Assembly: GCA_947475245.1 (NCBI GenBank) | Contig: CANJLW010000025.1 | Location: 1 to 61,055, forward strand | Direction: 5' to 3' | Length of the DNA stretch: 61,055 nt | DNA from: Acetobacteraceae bacterium | GTDB taxonomy: Bacteria > Pseudomonadota > Alphaproteobacteria > Acetobacterales > Acetobacteraceae | Part shown: piece by piece, positions 9,921 through 61,055 of the stretch | Layout: each line of letters starts with the position of its first letter | Numbering within the stretch: position 1 is the stretch's first letter | Program-made: the position numbers and the translations under genes | The notes under the pieces: generated by a model | The model's input: only the letters and a program-made list of their open reading frames with translations | Told to the model about the DNA's origin: nothing | The model's database searches: none

Positions 9921-9943
9921 GGTCTGGGTCTCCTGCTTGTCGA

Positions 9944-10825
9944 TCAGGCGGCGAGGGCGGCGTAGTCCAGCGTTGCCATGACCTGCAGTCGGCGCATATA
10001 GCGCGGCTCGTCCATGGTGTAGTCGGCGACGGCGTTATGGACAGTGCCGATATTGTCCCACATCAGCACGTCGCCGACCGCCCAGCGATGGGCATAGAAG
10101 AAATCGGCGCGTGTCTGGTGGCGGAACAGATAATCGACGATCAGGTCGCTTTCGGCGCGGTCCATGCCGTCGATGCTGACGGTGTAGCCGGGATTGGCAT
10201 ACAGCACCTTGCGCCCGGTGATCGGGTGAACGCGGATGATGGGCTGGGAGACCGGCGGCTTCTTCGCGCGCTGTTCGGGGGTCAGCGGCTTGCGGCTGGT
10301 GCCCGGACGGGACAGTGCGATTTCCCAGTATTTGTTGAAATCATGCGTCGCCGTGCGGCCTTCGAGCTTGGTTTTCAGCTCATCCGGCAATTCTTCATAG
10401 GCGGCGTGCATGTTGCGGAACTGGGTTTCGCCCAGCGGCTTGCCGTTGCGCATCGGCACGTGGCGGGCGTGCAGGATGTTGGCCAGCGCGATGTCCTTGG
10501 AATAGGACATGTCGGTGTGCCAATCCTGCCCGGCGTCGTGCAGACCCAGCGGGCGTCCATCCTGCTTCATGTTCGACAGGATCATCATCTCGGGGAAATC
10601 GGGCTCGTGGTATAGGCTGGCGGCAACGTTGACCTCCAACTCTCCGAAGCGCTTGCCGAACGCCGCCTGCGCGGGGATCGCCACGTCCTGGCCGGGGAAG
10701 CACAGCACGCCGTGTTCGCCCAGGGCGCGCAGGATTTGGCGGAAATCGGCATCGCTCATCGGTTGGTTCAGGTCGATATTGACGATATCGGCGCCCAATG
10801 CCTGGCCGGTCGGAACGATTTTCAT
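9944..10825 (-). CDS. TauD/TfdA-family Fe(II)/2-oxoglutarate dioxygenase
   Basis: Non-haem iron dioxygenase of 293 aa. The HxD iron motif is H103-T-D105 (DWHTDMS), the distal His lies in GTVHNAVADY, and the 2-oxoglutarate-binding Arg is in the following YMRRLQV. Members hydroxylate sulfonates, phenoxyacetates or similar small acids; the particular substrate cannot be read from sequence. The start codon overlaps the ribF stop (ATGA, 10822-10825), so it is cotranscribed with ribF, the hydrolase and the phosphoesterase. Confidence 0.9.
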   Translation of the reverse strand: MKIVPTGQALGADIVNIDLNQPMSDADFRQILRALGEHGVLCFPGQDVAIPAQAAFGKRFGELEVNVAASLYHEPDFPEMMILSNMKQDGRPLGLHDAGQDWHTDMSYSKDIALANILHARHVPMRNGKPLGETQFRNMHAAYEELPDELKTKLEGRTATHDFNKYWEIALSRPGTSRKPLTPEQRAKKPPVSQPIIRVHPITGRKVLYANPGYTVSIDGMDRAESDLIVDYLFRHQTRADFFYAHRWAVGDVLMWDNIGTVHNAVADYTMDEPRYMRRLQVMATLDYAALAA

Positions 10826-11757
10826 GCCTGGTCTACCTTCAGCAGGCGGCGGGCCTCGGCGGCATCCGTCGCGATTTGCGCCTTCAGCGCGTCAATGCCG
10901 GAGAATTTGACCTCCGGGCGGATATAAGCGTGCAGGGCGACGGTGATCTCGGTGCCGTAAATGTCGCCCTGGAAATTGAACAGATTGACCTCCAGCCGGC
11001 TTTCCGGCCCGGCGTTCACCGTTGGGCGGCGGCCGATATTGGCGACGCCGGGATGGGTGTCGCCGTTCGCGAGGCGAATGGTCACCGCATAAACGCCGCG
11101 AGCGGGTTCCAGATGCCGGCCCAACGCGACGTTTGCGGTGGGGAAGCCGATGGTGCGGCCGCGCTTGTCGCCGTGCGCGACCTCTCCGCGGATGGCCCAG
11201 GGCCGTCCCAGATCGGCGGTCGCGCGTTCCGGATAGCCGTCCTGCAGGGATCGACGGATGCGGGTGGAGGAGATCGGGCCGTGCGCGTCGGTGACCGGCG
11301 GCACCAGGGTCAGGCCAATGCCGAAACGCTCCGCGCTGGCGGACAGGTAGCCGACACCGCCGCCGCGCCGGTGGCCGAACGCGAAATCCTGCCCGGACAC
11401 CAGATGACGCGCGCCGAGACCGGCATGCAGCACGTCCGCGACAAAGGATTCCGCCGGGGTCAGGCTGAATTCGTGGCTGAAGGGGATTTCATACAGCAGA
11501 TCGACCCCGAGTTCGGCCAGCGCGGCGGCCCGTTCGGCGGCCAGGGTCAGGCGAAACGGCGGATCGTCGGGACGGAAAACCTCCCTCGGGTGCGGCTCAA
11601 ACGTCAGCACCGCGAGCGGCGCGTCGGGGCGGGCGGCATGGGCGGCGCGGATCAGGCTGGCGTGACCCAGATGCACGCCGTCAAAATTGCCCAGCGCGAC
11701 GGTGGCGCCGCGGGCATCGTCGGGCAGGCCCCGCCAATCGTGGAAAACGCGCATCAT
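10822..11757 (-). CDS. ribF: Bifunctional riboflavin kinase / FAD synthetase
   Basis: Protein of 311 aa that phosphorylates riboflavin and adenylates FMN. The N-terminal nucleotidyltransferase has GNFDGVHLGH at 23-32. The C-terminal flavokinase has the GRTIGFPTANV segment and a final FQGDIYG / ALHAYIRPE region. Start may be ATG 11757 or the adjacent ATG 11754. It heads a four-gene minus operon with a dioxygenase and hydrolase, an uncommon setting for this housekeeping gene, and is divergent from a flavin-dependent monooxygenase gene. Confidence 0.95.
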   Translation of the reverse strand: MMRVFHDWRGLPDDARGATVALGNFDGVHLGHASLIRAAHAARPDAPLAVLTFEPHPREVFRPDDPPFRLTLAAERAAALAELGVDLLYEIPFSHEFSLTPAESFVADVLHAGLGARHLVSGQDFAFGHRRGGGVGYLSASAERFGIGLTLVPPVTDAHGPISSTRIRRSLQDGYPERATADLGRPWAIRGEVAHGDKRGRTIGFPTANVALGRHLEPARGVYAVTIRLANGDTHPGVANIGRRPTVNAGPESRLEVNLFNFQGDIYGTEITVALHAYIRPEVKFSGIDALKAQIATDAAEARRLLKVDQA

Positions 11758-11951
11758 ACGCCCGGGACAAGCCGGTGGGGGATCCGGGCGCGGGGTTCGG
11801 CTGGCATGGCTACCTCGGGTTATCGTCGCTGCCCGCTTAATTGCGGGATGACGGCCCGCAAATCAACCGCGCGCGGCCTTCCGCTCCATCGTCGGCGTTG
11901 CCGGGGCGGCGGCGGCATGAAATGATCGCGGGGAAAAATCGGGAGGACGAT

Positions 11952-13046
11952 ATGGAAGTCGGCTTGCAAATGGTGTTCGCCAGCTACGGCTGGGACAATG
12001 TCTCCGACAAGCAGGTCTGGGACGAGGAACTGCGCCTTGCTCGGCTTGCCGCGGATCTCGGCTTTGACGTTCTGTGGTCGGTGGAACACCACTTCAACGA
12101 CTACTCCTTCTGCCCCGACAACATCCAACTGATGTCCTGGCTCGCCGCGACCTGCCCCAATGTCGGTCTCGGCACCGCCGCCGTGATCCTGCCCTGGCAC
12201 GATCCGCTGCGCGTCGCCGAACAGGTATCGATGCTGGATTACCTCTCAAACGGCCGCTTCCGCCTGGGTGTCGGGCGTGGCCTGGCTCGTCGGGAGTTCG
12301 AGGCTTTCCGCGGCACCATGGACGAATCGCGGGAGCGCTTCGACGAGGCGGCGGCGATGATCGTCGAGACGCTGAAGACCGGGTTCATGGAGGGCAACGG
12401 CAAGCATTATAAGCAGCCGAGGATCGAAATCCGCCCGCGCCCGACCCGTTCGTTCGACGGCAAGGTCTATGCGGTGGCGTCGAGCGACGATTCCGTCGTG
12501 TCGGCGGCCAAGCTGAACGCGCGCATGGTCATGTTCGCCGACCGTCCCTGGCCGATGCGCATGCCGGCGATCCAGAAGCATCGCGATCTGATCCGCCAGA
12601 TGCACGGCGTGGAGGCAATGCCGCCGTTGCTGGCCGACTTCTGCATCTGCACGCCCACGCTGGACGGCACCGAAGACAAAGCCCGTCAGTACATGGGCAA
12701 GTTCGTGGAGAGCAATTTCTATCACTACGAATTGCTGGGCGAGCATTTCGCCAGCGTGAAGGGCTACGACGCCTATGCGCAGAAGATCGCGTTGACGCGG
12801 GAAATCGGCATGGACGGCATCATCTCCGCCTTTATGGAAGCCGCCGTCTGGGGCACGCCCGATCGTATCCTGCGCATGTTCGAGGAGCGCCGCCGCGTCG
12901 TCGGCGATTTCGAACTGGCGACGTCCTTCCGCTTCGGCGGCACGCCGTATGCCCTGGCCGAGGACGGCCTGAAACTGTACTGCAAGGAGGTCCTGCCGGT
13001 GCTGAAGTCCTGGAAGAACGACGCCGTCGCCAAGGCCGCGGAGTAA
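11952..13046 (+). CDS. Luciferase-like flavin-dependent monooxygenase
   Basis: LLM-class oxidoreductase of 364 aa; ATG 11952 follows GGGAGGAC. Typical TIM-barrel landmarks are WSVEHHF near residue 40, then a conserved GTAAVILPWHDP, and RFRLGVGRGLARREFEAF near 105-120. These enzymes use reduced FMN supplied by a separate reductase to oxygenate small organics. It is followed after 4 nt by the isopenicillin-N-synthase-like oxygenase, so the two are probably cotranscribed and act on related substrates (inference). It is divergent from ribF across 194 bp. Confidence 0.9.
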   Translation: MEVGLQMVFASYGWDNVSDKQVWDEELRLARLAADLGFDVLWSVEHHFNDYSFCPDNIQLMSWLAATCPNVGLGTAAVILPWHDPLRVAEQVSMLDYLSNGRFRLGVGRGLARREFEAFRGTMDESRERFDEAAAMIVETLKTGFMEGNGKHYKQPRIEIRPRPTRSFDGKVYAVASSDDSVVSAAKLNARMVMFADRPWPMRMPAIQKHRDLIRQMHGVEAMPPLLADFCICTPTLDGTEDKARQYMGKFVESNFYHYELLGEHFASVKGYDAYAQKIALTREIGMDGIISAFMEAAVWGTPDRILRMFEERRRVVGDFELATSFRFGGTPYALAEDGLKLYCKEVLPVLKSWKNDAVAKAAE

Positions 13047-13050
13047 GCCG

Positions 13051-14025
13051 ATGACCGCCGAGACCGTCATGCCGATCCTCGATGTCTCCCGCTATCTGGC
13101 GGGGGATGTGGGGGAACTTGACCGCCTCGGGCGGGAATTGCGCCATGCGTTCGAGCATGTCGGCTTCTGGTATCTGCGCGGCCACGGCGTGCCGTTCGAC
13201 CTGATCGACGCGGCGTTTCGCGAGTGCGAACGGTTTCACGCCCAGCCGATGGACGACAAGCTGGCGCTGCGCATCAACGAGCACAACATCGGCTATATGC
13301 CGATGGGCGGCAGTATCGCGCGCAGTTCCAAGGTCAATAACAACACGCGGCCCAGTGTGAACGAGGCGTTTTTTCTGCGCCGCGACCGCACGCCCGACGA
13401 TCCCGATGTGATCGCGGGCAAGCGGCTGCGTGGGCTGAACCAGTGGCCGCCCAACCTGCCGGGGTTCAAGGAGGTCGCGCTGGCCTATATGGGCGCGTTG
13501 GAAAACCTCGGTCGCCGGCTGGTGCCCATCTATGCCGTGGCGCTGGATTTACCGGCGGATTATTTCGACGCGATGTTCGCGCAGCCGAACATGATCCAGC
13601 GGTTTTCGCATTACGAGCCTCGACCGGAGTATGAGGACAACGAGTTCAGCATCGCGCCGCATACCGATTCCGGGTTCATGACGCTGCTGGCGCCGTCGGC
13701 CGTGCCGGGGCTGTCGATCCGGCTGCCGGACGGGACCTGGTTCGACGCGCCGGCGTTGCCCGACTGTTTCATCGTCAATGGCGGGGATATTCTGCGGCGC
13801 TGGACCAACGATCGGTTTTTGTCGACGCCGCATCGGGTGATCAACACGTCCGGCAAGCATCGTTATGCAATCCCGTTTTTCTTCGACACGCACCCGGATA
13901 CGCTGATCGAGTGTCTGCCGAGCTGCCGGACGGCGGAGAGTCCGGCGCGGTATGAGCCGATTACGTATGATGAGTACGCGATTTGGTATGCGTCGCGGAA
14001 TTACGTGCATCAGGGGAAGGATTGA
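13051..14025 (+). CDS. Isopenicillin-N-synthase-family Fe(II)/2OG oxygenase
   Basis: Protein of 324 aa in the DIOX_N / 2OG-FeII_Oxy family. Iron ligands are visible as H204-T-D206 (APHTDSG) and H261 (STPHRV); R271 in RYAIPFF is the co-substrate Arg. The N-terminus has the family phrase GFWYLRGHGVP near 38-48. Bacterial homologues outside beta-lactam pathways oxidise assorted small molecules, so the name gives the fold and not the product. It lies 4 nt after the luciferase-like gene. Confidence 0.9.
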   Translation: MTAETVMPILDVSRYLAGDVGELDRLGRELRHAFEHVGFWYLRGHGVPFDLIDAAFRECERFHAQPMDDKLALRINEHNIGYMPMGGSIARSSKVNNNTRPSVNEAFFLRRDRTPDDPDVIAGKRLRGLNQWPPNLPGFKEVALAYMGALENLGRRLVPIYAVALDLPADYFDAMFAQPNMIQRFSHYEPRPEYEDNEFSIAPHTDSGFMTLLAPSAVPGLSIRLPDGTWFDAPALPDCFIVNGGDILRRWTNDRFLSTPHRVINTSGKHRYAIPFFFDTHPDTLIECLPSCRTAESPARYEPITYDEYAIWYASRNYVHQGKD

Positions 14026-14108
14026 GGTTGGGGGGGCGTTGCTGCGCGGCTGACCCCCGCCCGGCAACGGACGGTATAATCTAACGTATTGAAAAATACC
14101 GGGAAAAG

Positions 14109-14183
<75 letters not shown>

Positions 14184-14318
14184 CACCGTCGGAGCGCAGC
14201 TTCTAGCCGCACCCGATCCATCCCGCAAGACCGGCTGTCACGCTTTTTCCACATCTCCGCCCGACCATGTTGCGCCAACCCACGCCTCCGCCCAAACTCC
14301 GGCGCAGGAGGCAACGCC

Positions 14319-15479
14319 ATGGACTTCAACCTGACCAGCGAGCAACGCTCGATCCGCGACAATATCGCGCGGATTTGCGCCAAATTCGACGACGCCTACT
14401 GGTATCGCAAGGACCTCGACCACGCGTTCCCGCACGAATTCGCCAAGGCCTTCGCCGATGCCGGCTGGTTCGGCGCCATCTTCCCCGAATCCTGCGGCGG
14501 CGCGGGACTCGGCATGACCGAAGCCGCCATCATCATGCAGGAAGTCGGTCGCCTCGGGTTCAACGCCTGCTCCGCCCTGCATATGAACATGTTCGGCTGC
14601 ATGCCCGTGGTGAAATTCGGCAGCGACGAGCAGCAAAAGCGCCACCTGCCGCGCATCATCGACGGCACCGACCGTGCCTGCTTCGGTGTGACGGAGCCCG
14701 ACGCGGGCCTCGACACCACCCACATCACCACCTTTGCTCGGCGCGACGGCGATCGCTACATCGTCAACGGTCGCAAGGTCTGGACCTCCACCGCGCAGGT
14801 CGCCAACAAGATCCTGCTGTTGACCCGCACCACGTCGTTCGCCGACAGCAAACGCCCCAGCCACGGCATGACGTTGTTTTACACCGACCTCGACCGCAGC
14901 CGCGTCGAAGTGCGCCAGATCGAGAAAATGGGCCGCAACGCCGTCGATTCCAACGCGCTGTTCATCGAAAACCTGGAAGTCCCGATCGAGGACCGCATCG
15001 GAGAGGAAGGGCGCGGCTTCCACTACCTCCTCTCCGGCCTGAACTCCGAACGCATCATCGTCGCCGCCGGCGTTCTGGGCGCGACGCGCTATGTGATGGA
15101 CAAGGCGGTGGCTTATGCCAAGGATCGCGTCGTGTTCGGCCGCCCGATCGGGCAGAACCAGGCCATCCAGCACCCGCTCGCCGAATTATGGATCCACCAG
15201 ATGGCCGGGGAGCTGATGCTCTACAAAAGCGCCGCGCTGTATGACGCGGGCGAGGAATGCGGGGCGGAGGTCAACGCCGCCAAGTATTTCTGCGCCGATC
15301 TGTTCTTCCGCGCCGCCACCCGCGCCGTGCGCACCCATGGCGGCTTCGGCTATGCCAAGGAATTCCACGTCGAACGCTATTTCCGCGAGTCCATCCTGCC
15401 GCTGGTCGCCCCCGTCAGCCAGGAACTCGCCCTCTCCTACGTCGCCGAACGCGCGCTCGGCCTGCCGAAATCGTACTGA
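14319..15479 (+). CDS. Acyl-CoA dehydrogenase
   Basis: FAD-dependent acyl-CoA dehydrogenase of 386 aa; ATG 14319 follows GCAGGAGG. The middle domain has FGVTEPDAGLDTTH and a following KVWTSTAQVA. The C-terminal domain has an RVVFGRPIGQNQAIQ phrase and THGGFGYAKE, matching full-length family members. It introduces the alpha-beta double bond in a CoA thioester. It heads a same-strand run with a CitE-like lyase (15 nt later) and an enoyl-CoA hydratase, which suggests a short catabolic pathway for a branched acid. Confidence 0.93.
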   Translation: MDFNLTSEQRSIRDNIARICAKFDDAYWYRKDLDHAFPHEFAKAFADAGWFGAIFPESCGGAGLGMTEAAIIMQEVGRLGFNACSALHMNMFGCMPVVKFGSDEQQKRHLPRIIDGTDRACFGVTEPDAGLDTTHITTFARRDGDRYIVNGRKVWTSTAQVANKILLLTRTTSFADSKRPSHGMTLFYTDLDRSRVEVRQIEKMGRNAVDSNALFIENLEVPIEDRIGEEGRGFHYLLSGLNSERIIVAAGVLGATRYVMDKAVAYAKDRVVFGRPIGQNQAIQHPLAELWIHQMAGELMLYKSAALYDAGEECGAEVNAAKYFCADLFFRAATRAVRTHGGFGYAKEFHVERYFRESILPLVAPVSQELALSYVAERALGLPKSY

Positions 15480-15494
15480 AAGGACAACACCCCC

Positions 15495-16388
15495 ATGTGG
15501 CCCATTCGATCCGCCCTGTTCGTGCCCGCGCATCGTCGCGACTGGGTCGCCAAGGCGATCCGCGTCTCGCCAGGCGCGGCCATCCTCGATATCGAGGACT
15601 CAGTCCCGCCGCAGTTCAAGCCGCAGGCGATGGAATACCTGAAAAGCGAAATCGCCGAACTGAAGGCCGCCGGCGTCGGTGCCTTTGTGCGGGTGCAGCC
15701 GCTGTATGACGGCACCGAAGCGGAAATCGCCGCCGCCGTCACCGACGGGCTGACCGCCATCGTCCTGCCGAAAGTGTCCAGCCCCGCGGAGATCACCCGC
15801 CTCGCGGACATGCTGAGCTACGCGGAAGGCCGAGCGGGCGTGGCGCATGGGGCCGTGGGGATCGTGCCGCTGCCGGAAACGGCGGAGGGCATGTATTGCG
15901 CCCGTGACCTGTGCAAGGCCAGTACCCGCGTGCGCGGCATTCACGGCGCGCTCAGTGGCCCCGTATCGGGCGACTTTGCCCGCGCCTTCGGCTTCCGCGC
16001 GACCACGGATGGGTCCGAACAGCTTTTCCTCGCGTCCAAAATGGTGCTCGACAGCCGGGCAGGGGGGGCGATGTATCCGTTGGCGGGCATTTTCGGCACG
16101 CCGCAGGACGATCTGGCCGCCGTCGAGCGGCTGATCCGCAAGGCCCGCGACATCGGCTACACCGGTGTTGCCGTCATGCATCCGTCGCACGTCGCCGTCG
16201 CCAACGCCGTGTTCCGCCCGACGGAGGAAGAAGTCGCCTACTTCAAAGGCCTGCTCGCGGCGTTCGAGGCGGCGGAGAAAGCCGGTCTGGGCGCCGTCAG
16301 CTATCAAGGCGCGATGGTGGATTATGCCATGTTGCCGTTGGCCAACGAAGTGCTGGCCGAAGCGGCCCGTTATCAATCGAAATCATAA
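15495..16388 (+). CDS. HpcH/HpaI aldolase / citrate-lyase beta-type (CitE-like) enzyme
   Basis: TIM-barrel lyase of 297 aa of the CitE/malyl-CoA-lyase family. Landmarks are RSALFVPAHRRDW at the N-terminus, ILDIEDSVPP with the conserved acidic pair near 36-39, an Arg in FVRVQP, PLPETAEG near 120, and MHPSHVAVAN near the C-terminus. These enzymes cleave or form 3-hydroxyacyl-CoA or malyl-CoA-type bonds, or hydrolyse them. Placement between an acyl-CoA dehydrogenase and an enoyl-CoA hydratase suggests a CoA-dependent catabolic role. The exact substrate is unknown. Confidence 0.88.
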   Translation: MWPIRSALFVPAHRRDWVAKAIRVSPGAAILDIEDSVPPQFKPQAMEYLKSEIAELKAAGVGAFVRVQPLYDGTEAEIAAAVTDGLTAIVLPKVSSPAEITRLADMLSYAEGRAGVAHGAVGIVPLPETAEGMYCARDLCKASTRVRGIHGALSGPVSGDFARAFGFRATTDGSEQLFLASKMVLDSRAGGAMYPLAGIFGTPQDDLAAVERLIRKARDIGYTGVAVMHPSHVAVANAVFRPTEEEVAYFKGLLAAFEAAEKAGLGAVSYQGAMVDYAMLPLANEVLAEAARYQSKS

Positions 16389-16399
16389 GGACCCAGCCC

Positions 16400-17317
16400 G
16401 TGCCCCTGGATTACGAAAAGCGCGACGGTGTCGCCTATATCACGCTGAACAACCCCGAGAAGGCCAACATTCTGGATAAGCAGATGTCGGACGCGATCTC
16501 GGAAGCCTGGATCGACCTGTGGGAAGACCGCGACATTCGTTGCGCCATCCTGACCGGCAAGGGCGATCGCCATTTCTGCGGCGGCCATAATCTTGCGCCG
16601 CGCCCCGGCGTAACCGCCGAGGAACGGGAATATCTGCGCACCCAGCGCATCTTCTGGCCCCTGGCCGGGACGGTGCACGGGCAGAAGACCGGCGTCGACG
16701 GTCGGATGGGCGATCATTACCCGCGCGTCTGGAAGCCGGTGATCGCCGCCGTGAACGGTTGGGCGGCCGGCGCGGGGCTGTATATCCTGCTGTCGTCCAC
16801 CGACATCCGTATCGCCAGCGCCGAGAACGCGAAGTTCAAATTCGCCCTGACGACCCAGGGCTGGCTCGGCAACGGACCGGGCGCGAGCCTGCTCGCCAAG
16901 CAGCTTCGCTACATCGACGCGATGAAAATCATGCTGACCGACGAACCGTTCGACGCGGCGGAAGCCTTGCGCATCGGCGTGGTGAACGAGGTCGTGCCGC
17001 ACGATCAGTTGCTGGCCCGCGCCGAACGCTATGCCCGCCACATCTGCAAGCTGCCCCCGGTGGCGGTGCGGATGATGAAGGAGTTCATGGTGCGCTTCGG
17101 CGATCTGCCCACCGATCAGGCCTGGCACATCCAGAACATCATCAACTCCCTGCTGATCCAGACCACGATCGACGGGGAAGAAGGCCGCACGGCGTTTAAC
17201 GAAAAGCGCCCGCCCAACTTCACCGGCGCCCTGCGTCGGCGTGGGGAGGCCTGGGACACGCTGTCGGAAGAAGACGCTGCTCGGCTGGATGAAATTTACC
17301 GCAGCGGAGAGTTCTGA
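16400..17317 (+). CDS. Enoyl-CoA hydratase/isomerase family protein
   Basis: Crotonase-fold protein of 305 aa. GTG 16400 is chosen because AAGGA lies 9 nt upstream and the family start VAYITLNNPEKAN follows at once; the frame stays open much further upstream only as a shadow of the lyase gene. The oxyanion loop regions are CGGHNLAP and NGWAAGAGLYILL. An insert of about 30 residues (around 70-100) makes it longer than a typical 260-aa hydratase. Third gene of the 14.3-17.3 kb run. Confidence 0.87.
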   Translation: MPLDYEKRDGVAYITLNNPEKANILDKQMSDAISEAWIDLWEDRDIRCAILTGKGDRHFCGGHNLAPRPGVTAEEREYLRTQRIFWPLAGTVHGQKTGVDGRMGDHYPRVWKPVIAAVNGWAAGAGLYILLSSTDIRIASAENAKFKFALTTQGWLGNGPGASLLAKQLRYIDAMKIMLTDEPFDAAEALRIGVVNEVVPHDQLLARAERYARHICKLPPVAVRMMKEFMVRFGDLPTDQAWHIQNIINSLLIQTTIDGEEGRTAFNEKRPPNFTGALRRRGEAWDTLSEEDAARLDEIYRSGEF

Positions 17318-17353
17318 CCGCGAGGCAGATGATAGACTTTGCCACCCATTTGT

Positions 17354-17392
17354 GACATTACTGTCGACCTCGTTGGGGACGACAGTAATGTC
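17354..17392 (+). promoter_or_regulatory. 13-bp inverted repeat enclosing a Shine-Dalgarno and start codon
   Basis: Perfect arms GACATTACTGTCG (17354-17366) and CGACAGTAATGTC (17380-17392) with a 13-nt loop. The loop contains GGGGA, the likely ribosome-binding site, and the right arm contains ATG 17388 of the next gene. Two readings are possible: a terminator for the upstream run (no U-tract), or an RNA or protein-binding element that controls translation of the small membrane protein. Confidence 0.7.
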
Positions 17393-17894
17393 TGATATGG
17401 GTGCCTCGCTCGCGCCGTTCGCCACCCCTCTTATCGCCGCCACAGGCGCAATCCTTGTCGCTATCATCGCCGCTTTAAGCGCTATAGCCGTTGCTGCAAT
17501 CACTTATTGGACGACCAAAAAGCGGGAACGCGAGGCTGAGCTCCGCCGGGAAAAATTGGAACACTACAAGGATTTTGTGGCTACCCTCGCCGACGTTATT
17601 TCTGGCAATCGTACATTGGAGAACCAACAAGCGTTTGCGCGCGCGTGCAACAAGCTCAATCTGGTGGCGCCGTTATCGGTCATCGATGCATTCCGGGCGT
17701 TTCAAGACGAGGGCGACGGGGAGGAAGGTGAACAGGCAGAAACCAGACGCAACGCCCTGATGTCACACTTATTCTATGCCATGCGCGACGATTTAAGCGT
17801 GGGGAACAGGCGTGATGACCAGACGATATTGATCCGGTTTTGGACCGCAGGCACGGCGCAAACGCCGGAACATACGCGGTCTATGGGAGATTAA
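17388..17894 (+). CDS. Small membrane-anchored protein of unknown function
   Basis: 168 aa. Residues about 8-42 form one long hydrophobic segment rich in Ala and Ile, followed by a charged helix (TKKREREAELRREKLEHYKDF) that looks coiled-coil. A soluble region ends in an acidic patch (EDGxEE-like, about 105-120). No known enzyme motif is seen. Codon use is less GC-biased than in the flanking genes, with many A- and T-ending codons, hinting at later acquisition. Translation starts inside the stem of a perfect inverted repeat. It interrupts a run of CoA-metabolism genes. Confidence 0.7.
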   Translation: MSDMGASLAPFATPLIAATGAILVAIIAALSAIAVAAITYWTTKKREREAELRREKLEHYKDFVATLADVISGNRTLENQQAFARACNKLNLVAPLSVIDAFRAFQDEGDGEEGEQAETRRNALMSHLFYAMRDDLSVGNRRDDQTILIRFWTAGTAQTPEHTRSMGD

Positions 17895-17986
17895 TGCCGG
17901 ATAGACGCCGTATCGCGCACAGCACCCTTGACCGCGTCCGCCAAAGCCCCAAACTCCGCCGCAACAGACGCCCGAGGAAGCCTTCC

Positions 17987-45983: not shown

Positions 45984-48647
45984 TCAGGCGAAGAAGTTGC
46001 TGGTGACCTTGCCGATCCCCAGCAGATCAACGCGGTAATTGGTGGACAGGGTCAGCCAGGTGCCGCCCTTGCCATCCGATGCCTGCGTCGCCAGCGCCGT
46101 GGACACGGTGTTCGCCCCGAAGCCGACGAGTTGGAAGCTGTCGATTCCGACGCGGAAGCCGCTGATCGTATCGATGCCGCCGATCTTGGCGGATTGCACC
46201 TGGATCACGTCGGACTTGCCGCCGATGGTGACGATGTCGCTGCCGGTACCGAGGACGAACGTGGTTTTGCCCGCCCCCGCGACCATCGTCGTGGTCCCGG
46301 TTCCGCCCATCAGCGTGATGATGCCGGTTGCCGTTCCGCCCAGCAACTGTTCCGAGCCTCCGCCGGCGATCAGCACATGGTTGGCATTGCCGCCGGCGGT
46401 CAGAACGTCGCCATTGGTCTGACCATAGAAGGTGGCAAGACCTGTGCCGGCGGTCAGTCGGCTGTTGCCGCCCGTGCCGGCGTAGTACGTGCCGCCGCCG
46501 ATGCCGGATTCAATCAGCACCGTGCCGGTACCGGCATAGACGACGGACGATCCGCTGCCGTTGATGAAGGTCAGTTTGGATCCCTGGGCATACACTGTAT
46601 CGCCGACGGTGCCTGTCGCGGTGATCGTCGCGGTTGCCAGGCCTGCCCAAATCGTATCGCCGCCGCCGGAAGCGATCGTCGCCGTGGAGGCCGCGACGCT
46701 CGACAGCGTCACCTGACTGGCTCCCTTGCCGGTGGAGATCGTGCTGCTGCCCAACCCGCCGAAAATCTTATCGGCGCCGGAGCCTTTCAGGACGGAAACA
46801 CCGTCGCCGCCGGTCAGGGTGCTTCCGCCGGACGTCAGACCGGTCAAGGTCACGGTGCCGGTCGATCCATTGGCGTGCGCGTTGCGCAGGCCGGTGCCGA
46901 CGGTGACGGCCACGCCGTCAATCATCCCGGCGCCGCCGTTCAGGTTGATGGTTGTGGCGAACGGCATTGCGATCAGGTCGATCGTGGTCGCGCCGTTCGG
47001 CGTCACCATCGTCCGCGCGGCGTTGGCCGCGGCCAGGGCGGCGAATTCCGGCGTATAGATTAGCGGCTGCACGACGTTGGCGGCGTCGCCGTAGACCGAA
47101 AGGGTCCAGCTTTTGACGGTGCCCACGGCCTTGCCGTTGATGTCCTGCACCTGCAACGTCCAATTGCCGGCCGACGTCATGCCCCAGAACGCGTTGGACG
47201 TGATCAGGTCGCCCGATACATCCAACCCCCCAGTCAGGTCGCGCCCGTTCACCAGCCCGGTCTGGTTCAGCAGCACCGATTGCGTGCCGTTCGGCGCGAT
47301 CAGGACGATCCTGGAATAGGCGACCGGCAGATAGGTGTCGGTGATCGACACCTGCACATGTTCGATCCGCAGATTGGTTCCCAGCGTCAGCGTGCTGGAT
47401 GCCGTGGCGTTGATGCCGACATTGAACGCGGTGCTTTTGGTGGCACTCGCGCTCATCATGTTTTTGCTGGTGGATTGCAGCGTCCAGGCGCGCGCCAGAT
47501 TGACCGCGACGTTGGCGTCCACGACCCCAAAGCCCAGGTCGTTGGAAAAATGCATCCCCCCGCCGTTCCAGGTCTTCGCGCCGTTGGTTACGAACCCGCT
47601 CGCGCTGGGTGCCGGCGCATAGGCCGAGGCGGCCAGAATTTCCTGTACGTCGCGCCAGCCGAGGGCCGGGTTCACGCTCAGCATCAGCGCCGCGATGGCC
47701 GACACCGTCGGCGCGGAGTACGACGTGCCGCTTTGCGTCCCGGCACCCGATCCACCGGTCAGCGGCACGGCGACGTTGTTGCCGATCGCCGATACCAACA
47801 GCCCGGCACCCCTGGTGGAGTAATACGCCACGGTGCCGTTTACGTCGGTCGCACCGACCGCGATCACGCGGTAATCGGCGGTTATCGGCTGCACCGCCAG
47901 ATCGTTGGCGTTCGTGCGGTCATTCCCGGCCGAGAACACCAGTACGTCGCCCAGCCCGGCCCGACCGTTCTGCACCGCCCATTGGACCGATGCGTACCAG
48001 CTCGCAAAGCTGCTGTTGGTCGGCTGGCCAGAGCCGTAGCCGGTATAGCCCCAGGAGTTATTGACCACCCCGGCGACGGACGCGGCGTATTGTTCGGCCT
48101 GCGCAAAGCTCGCGGTCGTGCCGCTGCCGAAGCTTACCTTGACGCCGACGATCGTCGCATTCGGCGCAATGCCCATGGGGGTGCCATTCGCCCCGGACGC
48201 GCCGATCATTCCTGTTGTCGTGGTGCCGTGAAAGCCGCCCGTCGGCTCTCCGATCGCCGTCGCCGCTCCGCCGGCGAAGCTACGCGACAAGGCGGTGGAG
48301 AAATTCGCATAGGTCGCCGTCGTCGCCGGATCGAACCCGTCGTCGACCACCGCGACGGTGACCCCGGTGCCCGTGGCATATTTCCAGGCCGTCGCGATGT
48401 TACTGCCGTAGATCCGCGTCGTGCCGTAATTATACCCGCTCAACTGCACTTCACTGATCGTACCAGGCACGCTCGGCACGATCACCGCGAGCGGTGCCGT
48501 GGTCGGTTCCTGGGGCGCGACGACGCCAATCGGGGCTTGTACGTTCGGGCGAGCGGTCCATTGGTCCAACAACAGGAACTCGGAGGGGGTGAACACCTCC
48601 AAGGTCGGAATGTCGTCGATACCTGAAATACGCTTAAGCTGAACCAT
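45984..48647 (-). CDS. Kexin-like subtilase with P-domain and repeat-rich C-terminus
   Basis: 887 aa, no signal peptide. The subtilase domain spans about 65-390 with catalytic D102 (VVDDGFD), H140 (GFHGTTTTG), oxyanion N242 (FSAGND) and S309 (GTSYSAP); the DDG motif is kexin-type (S8B). A proprotein-convertase P-domain follows at about 410-515 (IVLIAPNGTQSVLL). Residues about 545-850 are Gly/Thr/Ala-rich beta-roll-like repeats related to RTX or hedgehog-type beta strands, and the C-terminus resembles type I secretion targets. It is therefore probably exported by an ABC-type type I system encoded elsewhere. The region before the start is AT-richer than average. Confidence 0.88.
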   Translation of the reverse strand: MVQLKRISGIDDIPTLEVFTPSEFLLLDQWTARPNVQAPIGVVAPQEPTTAPLAVIVPSVPGTISEVQLSGYNYGTTRIYGSNIATAWKYATGTGVTVAVVDDGFDPATTATYANFSTALSRSFAGGAATAIGEPTGGFHGTTTTGMIGASGANGTPMGIAPNATIVGVKVSFGSGTTASFAQAEQYAASVAGVVNNSWGYTGYGSGQPTNSSFASWYASVQWAVQNGRAGLGDVLVFSAGNDRTNANDLAVQPITADYRVIAVGATDVNGTVAYYSTRGAGLLVSAIGNNVAVPLTGGSGAGTQSGTSYSAPTVSAIAALMLSVNPALGWRDVQEILAASAYAPAPSASGFVTNGAKTWNGGGMHFSNDLGFGVVDANVAVNLARAWTLQSTSKNMMSASATKSTAFNVGINATASSTLTLGTNLRIEHVQVSITDTYLPVAYSRIVLIAPNGTQSVLLNQTGLVNGRDLTGGLDVSGDLITSNAFWGMTSAGNWTLQVQDINGKAVGTVKSWTLSVYGDAANVVQPLIYTPEFAALAAANAARTMVTPNGATTIDLIAMPFATTINLNGGAGMIDGVAVTVGTGLRNAHANGSTGTVTLTGLTSGGSTLTGGDGVSVLKGSGADKIFGGLGSSTISTGKGASQVTLSSVAASTATIASGGGDTIWAGLATATITATGTVGDTVYAQGSKLTFINGSGSSVVYAGTGTVLIESGIGGGTYYAGTGGNSRLTAGTGLATFYGQTNGDVLTAGGNANHVLIAGGGSEQLLGGTATGIITLMGGTGTTTMVAGAGKTTFVLGTGSDIVTIGGKSDVIQVQSAKIGGIDTISGFRVGIDSFQLVGFGANTVSTALATQASDGKGGTWLTLSTNYRVDLLGIGKVTSNFFA

Positions 48648-55843: not shown

Positions 55844-57649
55844 ATGGATCGGGGCAATTCATCGCCGGAGGCCACCGTGACCGCACTCGCCGACCTTTCT
55901 CACGACGCATCGTTCGGACACATCGTCGCATCGGTCGAGCGGATCGGCGCCAATCAGGGATTGCCGTCCGTCATTGCGCTGTATCGCGGTTGGATCGATG
56001 CCCAGCCCGACCACCAGCCGCTGCTGCACGCGGCCTGGTTCAACCTGGGCGTCGAGTTGTCCCGCGCCAAACAGGGCGTGGACGCGGCGGAGGCCTATCG
56101 CGCCAGCCTGCGCCTGAAGCCCGACTTCCACCCCGCCGCGATCAATCTCGGCCTGTTGTTGGAACAGCACGGCCAGACCGACAGCGCGCTGAGCGTTTGG
56201 CGCGGCGCCACCCAGTCCGACGAGGCCCGCACCGGCCTGCTGAACCATCAGGCGCGTCTGATGGAGCGGATGGGGCGGCTGGCGGAAGCAGAACGTCTGC
56301 TGCGCGCGAGCCTGGCGACCGATCCCGTGCAGCCCGACGCGGTGCAGCACTGGGTGCATCTGCGGCAGAAACTGTGCATCTGGCCCGTCCTGGCACCCGT
56401 TATTCCGGGATTGGCGGCCGCCGACATGCTGCGCCAGGCAGGACCGCTGGCGGTGCTGGCGCTGACCGATCGGGTCGAACAGCAGAAAGCCATTTCCGCC
56501 GACTGGATCGCGCGCAAGACCTCGGCGACGCCGGAACGGCTGAGTCCCCTCGGCGGTTACCGGCATGATCGCATTCGGATTGGCTATATCTCGTCGGATT
56601 TCTGCCGCCATGCGATGAGCTACCTGATCGCGGAATTGTTCGAGCGGCACGATCGCGCGCGGTTCGAAATCTTCGGATATTGCTCCAGCCCGGACGACGG
56701 CAGCGATCTGCGACGCCGCGTGATCGGCGCGTTCGACTGCCACCGCGCGATCCGCGATCTGCCGGACGAAGCCGCCGCGCGTCTGATCCGGGCGGACGAA
56801 ATCGATATCCTGATCGATCTGAACGGGCTGACGGCGGGCGCGCGGCTTCAGGTGCTGCGCTGGCATCCGGCCCCGGTGCAGGCGACCTATCTGGGCTTCA
56901 TCGGCCCGGTGCCGCTGCCGGAACTGGACTATCTGCTCTGCGACGGGTTCGTCGTGCCGCCGGCATTGGACGCCGCCTATGCCCCCAAACCGCTGCGCAT
57001 TGTCGGCAACTATCAGGCGAACGACAGTAAGCGGGTGATCGGCGCGCCGATGACGCGCGCGATGGCCGATCTGCCGGCGGATCGGTTCGTGTTCTGCTGC
57101 TTCTCCAACCACTACAAGATCACGCAGCCCATGTTCGCCGCCTGGATGGACATCCTGCGGCAGACCGGGGACTCCGTGCTGTGGTTGGTCGCGGACAATC
57201 CCTGGTCCTGCGAGAATTTGCGTCGCGCCGCCCAGGCCGCCGGTGTCGACCCCGGGAGGCTGCTGTTCGCGGATCGCACCGATCCCGCGCATTACATGGC
57301 GCGATTGAGCCTGCCCGATCTGTTCCTCGACACCTTTCCCTATAATGCCGGTACGATCGCCAGCGACGCCATTCGCATGGGGTTGCCGCTGTTGACCCTG
57401 TGCGGGGAGTCCTATGCCTCCCGCATGGCGGCGTCGCTGTTGAACACCCTGGGCGCGTCGGGGGGTATCGCGCATGAGGTTGCGGAGTACACGCGCCTGG
57501 CCGTCGATCTGGCGAACGATCCCGCGGCCATGGCCACGTTCCGTCAGGCATTCACGCCCGAACGCTGGGCGGCGACGATCGGCGATATCGCCGCCTTCGC
57601 CTCGGCATACGAAGCCGCGTTGCTCAGCGTGTCACGGACCCCCGCCTGA
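55844..57649 (+). CDS. O-GlcNAc-transferase (OGT/SPINDLY)-like glycosyltransferase with TPRs
   Basis: 601 aa from ATG 55844 (AAGG 7 nt upstream). Residues about 25-190 are TPR repeats (HAAWFNLGVELSRAKQGVDAAEAYRASL is one, broken here after 20). Residues about 240-590 form the OGT catalytic GT-B domain: RIGYISSDFCRHAMSYL, an LIDLNGLTAGARLQVLRWHP-APVQ segment, FCCFSNHYKI, and DLFLDTFPYNAGTIASDA. Bacterial relatives O-glycosylate Ser/Thr of flagellins, autotransporters or repeat proteins in the cytosol. A Thr/Ser-rich repeat gene and a flagellin-like gene are in this window. It ends 18 nt into the convergent Sel1 gene. Confidence 0.88.
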   Translation: MDRGNSSPEATVTALADLSHDASFGHIVASVERIGANQGLPSVIALYRGWIDAQPDHQPLLHAAWFNLGVELSRAKQGVDAAEAYRASLRLKPDFHPAAINLGLLLEQHGQTDSALSVWRGATQSDEARTGLLNHQARLMERMGRLAEAERLLRASLATDPVQPDAVQHWVHLRQKLCIWPVLAPVIPGLAAADMLRQAGPLAVLALTDRVEQQKAISADWIARKTSATPERLSPLGGYRHDRIRIGYISSDFCRHAMSYLIAELFERHDRARFEIFGYCSSPDDGSDLRRRVIGAFDCHRAIRDLPDEAAARLIRADEIDILIDLNGLTAGARLQVLRWHPAPVQATYLGFIGPVPLPELDYLLCDGFVVPPALDAAYAPKPLRIVGNYQANDSKRVIGAPMTRAMADLPADRFVFCCFSNHYKITQPMFAAWMDILRQTGDSVLWLVADNPWSCENLRRAAQAAGVDPGRLLFADRTDPAHYMARLSLPDLFLDTFPYNAGTIASDAIRMGLPLLTLCGESYASRMAASLLNTLGASGGIAHEVAEYTRLAVDLANDPAAMATFRQAFTPERWAATIGDIAAFASAYEAALLSVSRTPA

Positions 57650-59143
57650 AGCCGTTGCCGCCAGGATGTTCAGTGCGTAAATGGCGGCCGGGTGCCCGGC
57701 TGCTTTTGCGCGCTGGAACAAAGCCATGGCCGCGACGGGGTCGGCCGGTCCGCCGCGACCGTTGATCAGCATTTCTCCGGCCGCCACCGCCGCGTCGACG
57801 TCGCCGCCTTCGGCCGCCTTCAGGAACAGCAATCGCGCGGCGACGGGATCGGCGGGGCAACCGCGCCCTTCCGCGCGTAGGCGGCCGCTCCAGTACTGCG
57901 CCGCGGGCAGGGTCGCGGCGGCGATATCGAGCCATGCCAAAGCACCCACATCGTCCCGCGCCACGCCCACGCCGTTTGCCAGGCACAGGCCATAGTTGAA
58001 CGCCGCCGCCGGGTCGCCGTTTTGCGCGCAGTGTCGGAACCAGGCGCTGGTGTCGCGACTGTCGGCCTCCGAGGCCACTCCGCGCAGCGCGAGACGAGCG
58101 ATATCGTCCCGCGCCGCGTTGTCGCCCCCGTGCGCCGCGATGCGCAGCCAATGCGCGGCTTCCCGCGGGTCTTCTTCTTGCCGCCCCAGGTCTCGCGCCG
58201 ATCCCACGTGTCCGGCTTCGGCTGCTCGTCGCAGCCAGATAGCGGCTTCGGCTGGGTTGGGGGGCGTGTCGCCGGTCGATGCGTACAGCGTCGCCACGAG
58301 AGCGGCGGCGGATGCGTCCCCCGCCAGGGCGGCACGACGCAGCCAGGATTCAGCGGCGAATGGGTCGGGCGCGACTCCGCGACCGGCCAGCAGGGCCAGG
58401 CCGAGGCGATACTGCGCGTCACGATGGCCCAGCGTGGCCGCCGATCGGTACCAGGCGGCGGCGGTGGCAAAGTTGGGCGGCCCGGTCGCACCGCTTTCGT
58501 CAAGCACGCCCAGGCTGAACTGCGCCATCGGCAGGCCGGCGCTCGCCGCGTGTTCCAGCAGACCGCGCGCTTCGCGGATGGCGTTCGGCGCATTGTCGCG
58601 CAGCAGGTCCTGCGCCAGGCCGAGCGCGCCCTGGGGGCAACCGGCTTGGGCGGCTTTGCGGTAGTAGCGAACGCCCTCGGCGCGATCGAGCAGGCGATCC
58701 GGGCCGGCGGTCAGAATGTAGCCCATCAGTGCCCAGGCTTCGGGGCAGTTTTGCGCGCCGGCCTGGCTGGCCCAGTGATAGGCGACGTCGAAGTTGGGCG
58801 GGCGGTCGGCGGACGAAGCGGCCTCGAACAATCCGTCATGCGGGGTTTCGAGGAGGCCTTGCAGCGCCAGGGAGGCCAGCAATGTTTGCGCCTCGGCGTT
58901 ACCGTCGCGCGCGGCTCGGCCGATCCAACGCAGCGCGGTGGCGGGGGCGGAGGGTACGCCGTGGCCCAGCAGGTAGGCTCGTCCCAGGCGGTAGCAAGCG
59001 GTGGACAGCCCTGCCTCCGCCGCTTTGGCCAGCAGCGGCAGGGCTGCCTGATGCGCGCCTTGGCTGGTCAGCCGTTCGGCCAGGGTGACGCAGCTTTGCG
59101 GGGAGCCGCGGCGAAGAACACCAATGTATTTCAGGTAAAACAC
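57632..59143 (-). CDS. Sel1-repeat protein
   Basis: 503 aa made almost entirely of Sel1-like repeats of about 36 residues (A-x-LG-xY-x-G-xGV-x-D-x-A-A-x-W-x-R-A-A pattern), roughly a dozen copies. No signal peptide. Such proteins are scaffolds in signalling or envelope processes. It is divergent from the octad-repeat gene across 168 bp and convergent with the OGT gene, so it may belong to the same surface-protein locus. The partner is unknown. Confidence 0.88.
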   Translation of the reverse strand: MFYLKYIGVLRRGSPQSCVTLAERLTSQGAHQAALPLLAKAAEAGLSTACYRLGRAYLLGHGVPSAPATALRWIGRAARDGNAEAQTLLASLALQGLLETPHDGLFEAASSADRPPNFDVAYHWASQAGAQNCPEAWALMGYILTAGPDRLLDRAEGVRYYRKAAQAGCPQGALGLAQDLLRDNAPNAIREARGLLEHAASAGLPMAQFSLGVLDESGATGPPNFATAAAWYRSAATLGHRDAQYRLGLALLAGRGVAPDPFAAESWLRRAALAGDASAAALVATLYASTGDTPPNPAEAAIWLRRAAEAGHVGSARDLGRQEEDPREAAHWLRIAAHGGDNAARDDIARLALRGVASEADSRDTSAWFRHCAQNGDPAAAFNYGLCLANGVGVARDDVGALAWLDIAAATLPAAQYWSGRLRAEGRGCPADPVAARLLFLKAAEGGDVDAAVAAGEMLINGRGGPADPVAAMALFQRAKAAGHPAAIYALNILAATASGGGP

Positions 59144-59311
59144 TTGAGAATACCAAGATATGTCACTGTGGTTGAGTGTGATCTGTGTTTATTGATACTC
59201 GGTAAACGAGACGGCATTTGAAGAAATAATTCGCCGACTCCGTCGATATTTACGGTTCGTTAACCTCCATCGGGCAACCTCGGCGCACCTGGTATGGAAG
59301 AGGGTATTCCA

Positions 59312-61055
59312 ATGGCGTTTGCTGGTTACACAACGGCTCAGATCATCGCGCTTCCGACCAGCACGATTGCTGCCCTCTCGTCCTCTGATCTTCAAACGTT
59401 GACGACGACGCAGATGCGCGCGCTGACCAGCGCGCAGATCGCGGCGCTGACCACGGCGGCGTTGCTGGGGCTGACGACGGCCGAGGCGATGGCCATCAAT
59501 ACGGCTTCCATTCCAGGTCTGAGTTCCGCTCAGTTGGCTGCTATCCCCAGCGGCGACATCCTTGTCCTGACCTCGGCCCAGATTGCCGCGCTCGGCACCG
59601 CCGCGCTGGCGGGTCTGTCAACGGCCGAGGCGGCGGCGCTGACGACCGCGCAGGTGCGCGCGTTGACCAGCGCGCAGATTGCGGCCCTGAGCACGGCCGA
59701 TATTGCCGCATTGGGTACTGCGCAGATCGCGGTGCTTGGATCGGCGCAGGTTGCGGCCTTGACGACGGCGGGACTTGCCGCGCTGGGCACGGCGCAGGCG
59801 GCGGCGATCGGAACGGCGGGGATCGCGAAACTGACCTCGACCCAGATTGCTGCGCTGACCAGCGCGGACATCGTCGCGATGGGCAGCGCGCAACTGGCGG
59901 CGATCACCACGGCGGCGTTGGCCGGGATCGGCACGGCGGCGCTGGCGGGGCTTGCGACAGGCCAGATCGTCGGGCTGACGACCGGGCAGGTCGCGGCCCT
60001 GACCACGGCCCAGATCGGCGCGCTGACAACGGCGGAGGCCGCTGCGCTCACGACCGCTCAGGTCCGAGCGCTGACCACGGCGCAGATTGCCGCTCTGGGA
60101 ACGGCGGATATTGCGGCATTCGGCACTGCGCAGATTGCGGCGCTGGGATCGGCGCAGGTTGCGGCGCTGACGACGGCGGAGATTGCGGCCCTGGGCACGG
60201 GGCAGGCGGCTGCGATTGGAACGGCGGGGATTGCCGGGCTGAGTTCGGCGCAAACCGCCGCCCTACCCAGCGCGGACATCGTCGCGATGGGCAGCGCGCA
60301 ATTGGCGGCGATCACCACGGCGGCTTTGGCCGGGATCGGCACGGCGGCGCTGGCCGGGCTGGCGACCAGCCAGATCGTGGGGCTGACGACCGGGCAGGTC
60401 GCGGCGCTGACCACGGCCCAGATAGGCGCGCTGACAACCGCGGAGGCTGCCGCGCTCACGACCGCTCAGGTTCGCGCGCTGACCACGGCGCAGATTGCCG
60501 CTCTGGGCACGGCGGATATTGCGGCATTCGGCACGGCGCAGATTGCAGCACTTGGATCGGCGCAGGTTCGTGCGCTGACAACTGCGGGCCTCGCCGCGCT
60601 TGGCACGGCGCAGGCGGCTGCGATTGGAACGGCGGGGATTGCCGGGCTTACTTCGGCACAAACGGCGGCGTTGCCGAGTGCGGACATAGTCGCGATGGGC
60701 AGCGCACAATTGGCGGCGATCACCACGACGGCGCTCGCCGGGATAGGCACGGCGGCGTTGGCCGGCCTTGCCACAAGCCAGATCGTCGGGCTGACGACCG
60801 GTCAAGTCGCCGCGCTGACCACGGCCCAGATCGGTGCGCTGACGACGGCGGAGGCTGCTGCGCTGACCACCGCTCAGGTCCGCGCGCTGACCACGGCGCA
60901 GATTGCCGCTCTGGGCACGGCGGATATTGCGGCGTTCGGCACGGCCCAGATTGCGGCTCTGGGTTCGGCGCAGGTTGCGGCACTGACGACGGCGGAGATT
61001 GCGGCCCTGGGCACGGGGCAGGCGGCTGCGATTGGCACGGCGGGGATTGCCGGGC
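59312..61055 (+). CDS. Octad-repeat Thr/Ala-rich protein (partial, runs off the right edge)
   Basis: At least 581 aa with no stop before the window ends; ATG 59312 follows GGAAGAGGG, while an in-frame ATG 59294 lacks a good site. After MAFAGY almost every residue belongs to an 8-residue repeat with consensus L-[TG]-[TS]-A-Q-[IV]-A-A; about 72 octads are visible. Thr/Ser sit at positions 2-3, Leu/Ile at 1, and Gln/Asp/Glu at 5, fitting an N-capped short helix per repeat. From about residue 103 the octads group into 17-octad (136-aa) units of 408 bp. No Cys is seen. Likely a secreted or surface fibre and a possible OGT substrate; family not recognised. The apparent open frames on the minus strand here are shadows of the repeat. 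Confidence 0.85.
   Translation, partial: MAFAGYTTAQIIALPTSTIAALSSSDLQTLTTTQMRALTSAQIAALTTAALLGLTTAEAMAINTASIPGLSSAQLAAIPSGDILVLTSAQIAALGTAALAGLSTAEAAALTTAQVRALTSAQIAALSTADIAALGTAQIAVLGSAQVAALTTAGLAALGTAQAAAIGTAGIAKLTSTQIAALTSADIVAMGSAQLAAITTAALAGIGTAALAGLATGQIVGLTTGQVAALTTAQIGALTTAEAAALTTAQVRALTTAQIAALGTADIAAFGTAQIAALGSAQVAALTTAEIAALGTGQAAAIGTAGIAGLSSAQTAALPSADIVAMGSAQLAAITTAALAGIGTAALAGLATSQIVGLTTGQVAALTTAQIGALTTAEAAALTTAQVRALTTAQIAALGTADIAAFGTAQIAALGSAQVRALTTAGLAALGTAQAAAIGTAGIAGLTSAQTAALPSADIVAMGSAQLAAITTTALAGIGTAALAGLATSQIVGLTTGQVAALTTAQIGALTTAEAAALTTAQVRALTTAQIAALGTADIAAFGTAQIAALGSAQVAALTTAEIAALGTGQAAAIGTAGIAG
59618..61055 (+). repeat. 408-bp higher-order tandem repeats within the octad-repeat gene
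   Basis: Equivalent positions recur at 59618, 60026, 60434 and 60842, exactly 408 bp (17 octads) apart; the fourth copy is cut by the window edge. Units 1 and 3 share LTTAGLAA-LGTAQAAA at octads 7-8, while units 2 and 4 share LTTAEIAA-LGTGQAAA, so the true period may be 816 bp. Units 2, 3 and 4 are nearly identical in DNA, which points to recent unequal crossing-over. Confidence 0.92.

Follow-up and report, generated by a model that had tools for sequence, protein, structure and literature searches.

The window analysed here is a stretch of 61,055 nt from an Acetobacteraceae bacterium (assembly GCA_947475245.1, contig CANJLW010000025.1, forward strand, positions 1 to 61,055). It ends within a giant gene composed of octad repeats, and upstream of this gene lies one encoding a GT41 glycosyltransferase. 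The repeat family is already known; what is new here is the GT41 gene next to the octad gene. We consider it reasonably probable that the octads receive O-linked sugars from the GT41 enzyme in the cytosol, and that a type I system exports the product as a giant glycosylated helical fibre.

Organization of the octad gene

The features of the right end of the window are:

55844..57649, + strand: 601-aa GT41 glycosyltransferase carrying TPRs at its N-terminus (PF13844, E 1.3e-60; XcOGT 2jlb, E 7.8e-69)
57632..59143, - strand: Sel1-repeat protein of 503 aa, encoded divergently to the octad gene (PF08238, E 1.7e-46)
59297..59304, + strand: probable ribosome-binding site of ATG 59312, GAAGAGGG, assigned by visual inspection
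59312..61055, + strand: 5' part of the giant octad-repeat gene (PF20080, ALTTAQ), an open frame of octads (Pfam E 4.2e-152, 27 stretches)
59312..59617, + strand: divergent N-terminal part preceding the 408-bp units, residues 1-102, in which 12 octads start at residue 7
59618..60025, + strand: unit 1, 17 octads, 408 bp
60026..60433, + strand: unit 2, 17 octads, 408 bp
60434..60841, + strand: unit 3, 17 octads, 408 bp
60842..61055, + strand: unit 4, 214 bp, truncated by the contig end

The frame of the octad gene is free of stop codons until the contig end and has two candidate ATGs, at 59294 and 59312. The latter is preferred because GAAGAGGG is located upstream of it and because of the N-termini of relatives (for example M-S-S-I-T-x-L-T-x-A-Q-I-A-x-L-P-T). 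From ATG 59312 to the contig end the frame encodes 581 aa. Starting at residue 7 these form 71 complete octads of the type T-T-A-Q-I-A-A-L in a single register, plus 7 residues of a further octad, in agreement with the approximately 72 consecutive 8-residue repeats reported in the initial annotation. Position 8 is L, I, M or F in 71 of the 71 octads; the best-phase count for this position in 2000 shuffles had a mean of 23.5 and a maximum of 33. The tandem 8-residue period of PF20080 is thus present throughout, with all 71 octads in phase.

The DNA self-identity of the array was highest at a lag of 408 bp (0.78, top among lags of 24 to 1299 bp), followed by 816 bp (0.75). Identities between the units were 0.860 (1 versus 2), 0.831 (1 versus 3), 0.804 (1 versus 4), 0.875 (2 versus 3), 0.939 (2 versus 4) and 0.874 (3 versus 4). 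The initial annotation had described exact 17-octad units from position 59618 that alternate as an 816-bp A-B super-unit. The length of 17 octads is correct, but the units are not exact copies (DNA identity 0.80-0.94), and the super-unit is weakly supported. The 214 bp common to all four units contain 48 two-state sites, 6 of which follow the alternation of units 1 and 3 versus 2 and 4, all of them within a single 57-bp stretch, whereas 23 set unit 1 apart and 9 set unit 3 apart. The array is therefore a mosaic and not a clean series of 816-bp super-units; the 408-bp units are real, inexact and mosaic.

When the 89 contigs of the same genome were searched at E <= 0.001, the only two other octad matches fell on contig C27, at its left edge. 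Positions C27:3-953 encode 316 aa of octads followed by a stop codon. The first unit of this piece is 82-87% identical to units 1-3 of the window, and the piece scores 221.5 bits against PF20080. The octad gene probably resumes at C27:1-953 on the far side of a gap, the simplest reading being that of a single gene split into the window piece and the C27 piece by an assembly gap within the repeat. Octads extend up to the stop codon, and a Pfam scan of the C27 piece recognized no export or anchor domain. The initial annotation had proposed an extension to the right to obtain full length, copy number and a C-terminal export signal. Of these, a probable 3' end is now located on C27. It had also held that a frame closing shortly after the contig end with no export or anchor signal would speak against its interpretation. 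In all likelihood the frame extends by 316 aa or more on C27, which favours that interpretation; as to the signal, the absence of a recognized domain up to the C27 stop counts against it and the type I ABC genes found at 12 loci of relatives (see below) count for it.

Uninterrupted frames of 1120-2152 aa, consisting of octads nearly from start to stop, are present in five relatives of the same genus (loci L030, L031, L032, L036 and L037). These frames bear on the notion that the array is a repetitive genomic or assembly artefact, or a frame that is not translated. The contig does break within the repeat, and long antisense frames arise in arrays of this kind. Against this stand the uninterrupted relatives, a register without stops over 581 + 316 aa, the divergence of the units and a PF20080 score far above the cut-off, so that we regard an artefact as extremely improbable.

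Repeat family and predicted fold

The window piece matches the Pfam family PF20080, 'ALTTAQ repeat', with 494 bits at a cut-off of 26.4 (E 4.2e-152). Among 7996 candidates scored, 569 proteins match PF20080 at E <= 0.001. The 120 PF20080 proteins listed include fusions of octads to a calpain-type cysteine protease domain, PF00648 (P0056, P0054 and others), which perhaps constitute a different functional class of ALTTAQ protein. Many of those listed carry PF26745, a domain not reported by our local Pfam copy for the single such protein scanned. Whereas the window protein consists purely of octads, certain other members of the family add the PF00648 protease or a bacterial cadherin-like domain. 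Pfam gives just PF20080 and weak low-complexity matches for the octad protein, and no RTX calcium-binding repeats. Neither a published function for PF20080/ALTTAQ nor a paper on HeliScrew or on octad peptides was found in the full text of open-licence papers, and the family is apparently catalogued but unstudied. The initial annotation, which did not recognize a characterized family, thus missed the name PF20080; its view agrees with our finding no paper in open-licence full text that characterizes this family.

AlphaFold2 predicted about one short helix for nearly every octad, both for the window piece (mean pLDDT 90.9, pTM 0.73) and for the C27 piece (mean pLDDT 94.3, pTM 0.84). These models back the regular solenoid of short helices that had been predicted from the repeat pattern. 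The window protein also matches the sequence of PDB entry 9zem, HeliScrew4 (109 residues aligned, E 4.5e-13), which, judged by its name alone, is apparently a designed protein. HeliScrew4 is a 120-aa chain of octads and hence alike in repeat type; it differs in being short and more charged (LTPEQ-like) and in that Pro is common at position 2, as it is in genomes lacking GT41 (see below). For either AlphaFold2 model 9zem was absent from the best 50 rows of Foldseek / VIA, whose library (to April 2026) may lack this entry.

Genes neighbouring the octad gene

The most telling clue of this analysis is the GT41 gene located upstream of the octad gene, outside the coordinates considered in the initial annotation. 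The encoded protein aligned to XcOGT (2jlb) across residues 55-598, and its residues H256 and K425, placed opposite H218 and K388 of XcOGT, are conserved. We take H218 and K388, and hence by alignment H256 and K425, to be catalytic. The window GT41 is, judging from its sequence, a putative Ser/Thr transferase. The 3' end of its gene abuts that of the Sel1 gene (55844-57649, + strand, versus 57632-59143, - strand), and a Sel1 relative adjoins the octad gene in six other members of the genus (G005, G007, G010, G012, G025 and G027). About 7 kb from the GT41 gene the window encodes an 887-aa subtilase with a P-proprotein domain (45984-48647, - strand).

With the window GT41 as a query, seven loci were matched among the genomes searched: three in Acetobacteraceae/Rhodopila MAGs and one each in Acidisphaera sp. 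S103, an Acidobacteria MAG, Ciceribacter and a proteobacterial MAG. Octads were present at four of them, namely those of the three MAGs, whose GT41 is 64% identical, and that on the Acidobacteria contig, where the octad gene is located 65 bp from the GT41 gene. In Acidisphaera sp. S103, the remaining 64% GT41 match, the GT41 and octad genes are located on separate contigs.

GT41 genes are recurrently linked to octad genes

We scored a GT41 gene as linked when it was adjacent to, or within about 10 kb of, an octad gene. In the genus sample of 59 genomes, 18 carry PF20080, all belonging to the genus of the window and including its own genome, and GT41 is linked in 11 of these 18, again including the own genome (G000, G001, G004, G005, G008, G010, G011, G012, G022, G024 and G026). 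No GT41 was seen near the octad gene in the fetched stretches of G007, G025, G027 and G030; the first three have a 64-65% GT41 orthologue elsewhere in the genome, which we count in favour of a functional pairing of GT41 and octads. In G003, G009 and G015 the octad match sits at a contig end.

Beyond the genus, PF20080 was detected in 5 of 384 other genomes of the class sample (G209, G305 and G237 linked, G074 unlinked, G175 without GT41), in 27 of 397 others of the phylum sample (25 of 28, own genome included, above the family cut-off), and in 5 of 293 genomes of a second class sample. Four of these last five were new: G997 is linked, G886 and G943 have GT41 elsewhere, and G829 lacks it. GT41 is present in 18 of the 27 phylum-sample carriers and located within 10 kb in nine (G734, G752, G453, G479, G449, G444, G535, G507 and G482). 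Altogether, linkage was found in 13 of the 36 further carriers from these three samples and on the one Acidobacteria contig. GT41 occurs in 133 of the 398 phylum-sample genomes, and is enriched in PF20080 carriers (19/28 versus 114/370, own genome included and kinship uncorrected). In a hand-picked set of six genomes of at most 30 contigs that possess both families, five have them within 10 kb, with a rough chance of 1.4e-7, or 5e-6 after dropping one of two genomes of the same genus. Nine of the 27 phylum-sample carriers lack GT41, and glycosylation of octads therefore cannot be universal.

Some carriers stand out in other respects. Genomes of family f197, among them G449, G503, G492, G507 and G528, contain very many GT41 matches (47 in G449, 43 in G503 and 29 in G492). 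Open frames of 2279-3781 aa, each containing several GT41 matches, were found in G507, G492, G472, G489, G518, G528 and G542. On contig C1 of the one-contig genome G752 (loci L190 and L129) an octad-bearing frame of 5446 aa adjoins GT41 and ends in a C-terminal tail that is not composed of octads.

Ser/Thr content at octad position 2 correlates with GT41

If GT41 acts on the octads, the presence of Ser/Thr at one of their positions should depend on GT41. Octads were called without using Ser/Thr at positions 1-3, requiring a hydrophobic residue at position 8 and mostly at 5 and a small one at 7; frames also had to show Gln at position 4 in 20% or more of their octads. Frames with fewer than 14 octads or less than 20% Gln-4 were dropped (L143 of G464, L146 of G582 and the first long frame of L085), and the labels linked and unlinked were assigned by hand from the locus searches. 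The main test was done without G004, G015, G530 and G829, without the contig-end genes of G001 (C159), G003, G007, G009 and G027, and without G489, G492, G542 and G583. Locus L040 consists of two pieces of one gene with runs of N between them, and one row of L087 is cut by the end of the stretch.

The median Ser/Thr fraction at position 2 was 0.84 in linked genes (25 genes), 0.64 in unlinked genes (22) and 0.14 in genes of GT41-less genomes (7), where position 2 is mostly Pro, Ala, Gly or Asn. Linked genes exceeded unlinked ones (p 8e-4) as well as GT41-less ones (p 3e-7), and the effect persisted when kinship was reduced to 8 versus 13 groups (p 0.0013); for this collapse f174 was divided into its genera, and certain families counted in both groups. 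An extended test included 14 further loci; L089 (G004) and L091 (G015) gave none and the others one piece each. With these 12 contig-end or short pieces, the excess of linked over unlinked genes weakened to p 0.0099, and GT41-bearing exceeded GT41-less genes at p 3.2e-5. The GT41-less genes are few (7, of which 3 belong to one genus) and may represent other architectures, so that phylogeny could cause this difference.

At position 1, the predicted helix cap, the medians were 0.75 (linked), 0.63 (unlinked) and 0.74 (GT41-less). Linked and GT41-less genes did not differ here (p 0.51, collapsed p 0.40); linked genes were somewhat richer than unlinked ones (p 0.024), and part of the position-2 effect may thus be general. 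Position 3 differed between linked and GT41-less genes (p 0.0049), not between linked and unlinked ones (p 0.38). Its Ser/Thr fraction is 0.69-0.97 in f197, f51, f93, f63 and the group of G001, G011 and G026, versus 0.10-0.23 in the other linked genes, that of the window included.

Where one genome contains linked as well as unlinked octad genes, position 2 can be compared within it. The linked gene had the higher Ser/Thr fraction in G209 (0.95 versus 0.30), G022 (0.83 versus 0.48), G734 (0.35 versus 0.21) and G507 (0.78 versus 0.66 and 0.52), and the values were near equal in G237 (linked 0.70 and 0.64, unlinked 0.65). The fraction of just 0.35 in G734 in spite of linkage, and the high fractions of unlinked genes in G886 (0.99) and G025 (0.85 and 0.95), count against a dependence on GT41. 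The octad proteins of loci L082 and L085 are low in position-2 Ser/Thr (0.28 and 0.30, respectively).

These data have to be weighed against the possibility that the octad protein is exported or surface-bound in an unglycosylated form, that GT41 has another client such as flagellin, and that some subfamilies prefer Thr at position 2 for purely structural reasons. Genomes contain several GT41 genes, and in Caulobacter the TPR-glycosyltransferase FlmG modifies flagellins (PMC7591256, in part). In addition, octads lacking Ser/Thr at position 2 exist and keep the register, and position 1 also differs slightly between linked and unlinked genes. The effect at position 2 is far larger than that at position 1, however, and linkage recurs in separate families as well as on the Acidobacteria contig. 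We therefore judge another client for GT41 to be unlikely, and favour modification of the octads themselves.

Type I exporters at linked loci

A type I ABC gene is present at 12 of the 24 linked loci. HlyD was seen at 11 of these (G001, G011, G209, G305, G453, G479, G449, G444, G535, G482 and G997); at the twelfth, that of G026, the ABC gene was seen. In G209 and G305 the ABC exporter and HlyD genes are located between the GT41 and octad genes, and in G997 the order on one strand is octad, ABC, HlyD and GT41. A C39-like domain of the ABC exporter scored above the Pfam cut-off in G305 and below it in G209. HlyD of G209 scored above the TIGR01843 cut-off, and the best NCBIfam match of its ABC protein was TIGR01846 (HlyB), below cut-off. 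A search of 17 carriers at E <= 1e-60 gave linked ABC genes with at least 54% identity to the query, against at most 44% for all remaining copies; the linked ABC of G997 is 50% identical. Some carriers of the phylum sample have additional exporter copies of 46-57%, and 11 genomes in which PF20080 was not detected encode homologues of 46-64%. This exporter type is therefore not exclusive to octad loci. At locus L082 the octad gene is flanked by an NS-type endonuclease gene on one side and by HlyD-like and MFS genes on the other.

Neither the window nor C27 gave a HlyD match or an exporter of the linked type, the best match being one of 28-29% to an ABC ATPase on C27. An exporter was also absent from the fetched stretches of the Sel1-type relatives (the window clade, with a 64% GT41 and Sel1). 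The own genome does encode a type I ABC protein at C2:281614, 42% identical to the linked type and unlinked to the octad gene. It belongs to locus L202 (C2:272000-291900), in which genes for an ABC exporter, HlyD, a Sel1 protein and a GT2/GT4 fusion are co-oriented at 9450-17901. The Sel1 paralogue, which follows the ABC-HlyD pair and precedes the GT2/GT4 fusion, is 43% identical to the window Sel1 protein over 496 aa. L202 is a second type I plus glycosylation locus, and the tie that it provides between the Sel1 partner and both type I export and glycosylation is one of association only.

In most of the N-termini inspected, no more than about 10 residues separate the likely Met from the first octad, which leaves a Sec signal no room. 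At the other end, 12 C-termini aligned from families f1, f51 and f93 resemble one another in their last octads; f197 proteins do not share them. Since no signal peptide or export domain is seen, and no exporter of the linked type is nearby in the window clade, the octad protein might be cytosolic and never exported, the screw being glycosylated in place or serving as a binding platform for its Sel1 and TPR neighbours, which are scaffold types. The type I ABC gene at half of the linked loci (12/24) argues against this, and we hold a purely cytosolic protein to be quite unlikely. Export by a type I system is the reading that we retain.

A model for glycosylation and export

From the computed octads, their predicted fold, the recurrent neighbourhoods with GT41 and exporter genes and the position-2 correlation, we infer modification of the octad protein by GT41, the identity of its sugar, its export, its role at the surface and recombination of its units as follows. 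The giant, almost purely octad (ALTTAQ) protein would fold into an unbroken screw made up of very short helices, in which Thr, Ser or Gly at position 1 would cap every helix and positions 5 and 8 would form the core. The neighbouring TPR-GT41 would add a sugar in the cytosol to the turn Ser/Thr at position 2, in some lineages also at 3. The glycosylated chain, in which no Sec signal is seen, would then be exported by a type I (ABC-HlyD) system, in the window clade by an unlinked one. Outside the cell it may constitute a long glycan-coated fibre or coat, whose length would be set by unequal recombination between 408-bp units.

With chances that we put at slightly below even, these proteins represent a widespread, undescribed class: giant exoproteins glycosylated in the cytosol, built as all-helical octad screws, with the sugar placed at position 2 by a linked GT41 and export by a linked type I system. 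Such a class, if real, would be a mucin-like but rigid, helical bacterial surface fibre. To our knowledge, most bacterial GT41 enzymes are without a known substrate. The model, if true, would supply client proteins for these O-GlcNAc-transferase-like enzymes and a function for Pfam family PF20080, and repeat plus exporter would be a ready-made periodic scaffold for the display of glycans.

Comparison with known systems

A description of a GT41-octad-type I module was not found in open-licence full text. With regard to the enzyme, the window GT41 resembles XcOGT, to which it aligns, and FlmG in combining TPRs with a GT-B transferase in about 600 aa. HMW1C, which is related to GT41, acts in the cytosol. 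HMW1 and HMW1C form a pair of a large exoprotein and a partner glycosyltransferase; HMW1 differs in using two-partner secretion and Asn sites (PMC2877744, PMC3983070, both in part). FlmG differs from the proposed enzyme in that its clients are flagellins (PMC7591256, in part). The 71 octads of the octad protein contain a single Asn, which precedes T-A and does not form an N-X-S/T site; Pfam gives no HMW1-type two-partner-secretion domain, and relatives of the protein have type I exporters. Serine-rich repeat proteins use accessory Sec export and different transferases, and their repeats are less ordered. Repeats of these Gram-positive proteins are O-glycosylated on Ser/Thr and exported by a system of their own (PMC6973325, in part). 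The octad protein would be like them in having Ser/Thr-glycosylated repeats, and differ from them in its exporter. Because it has no two-partner domain and no Asn sites, and because its relatives have another exporter, we group the octad protein with neither HMW1 nor the serine-rich repeat proteins. By analogy with both, however, it would most likely work as they do, as a repeat exoprotein that receives its sugars in the cytosol before export.
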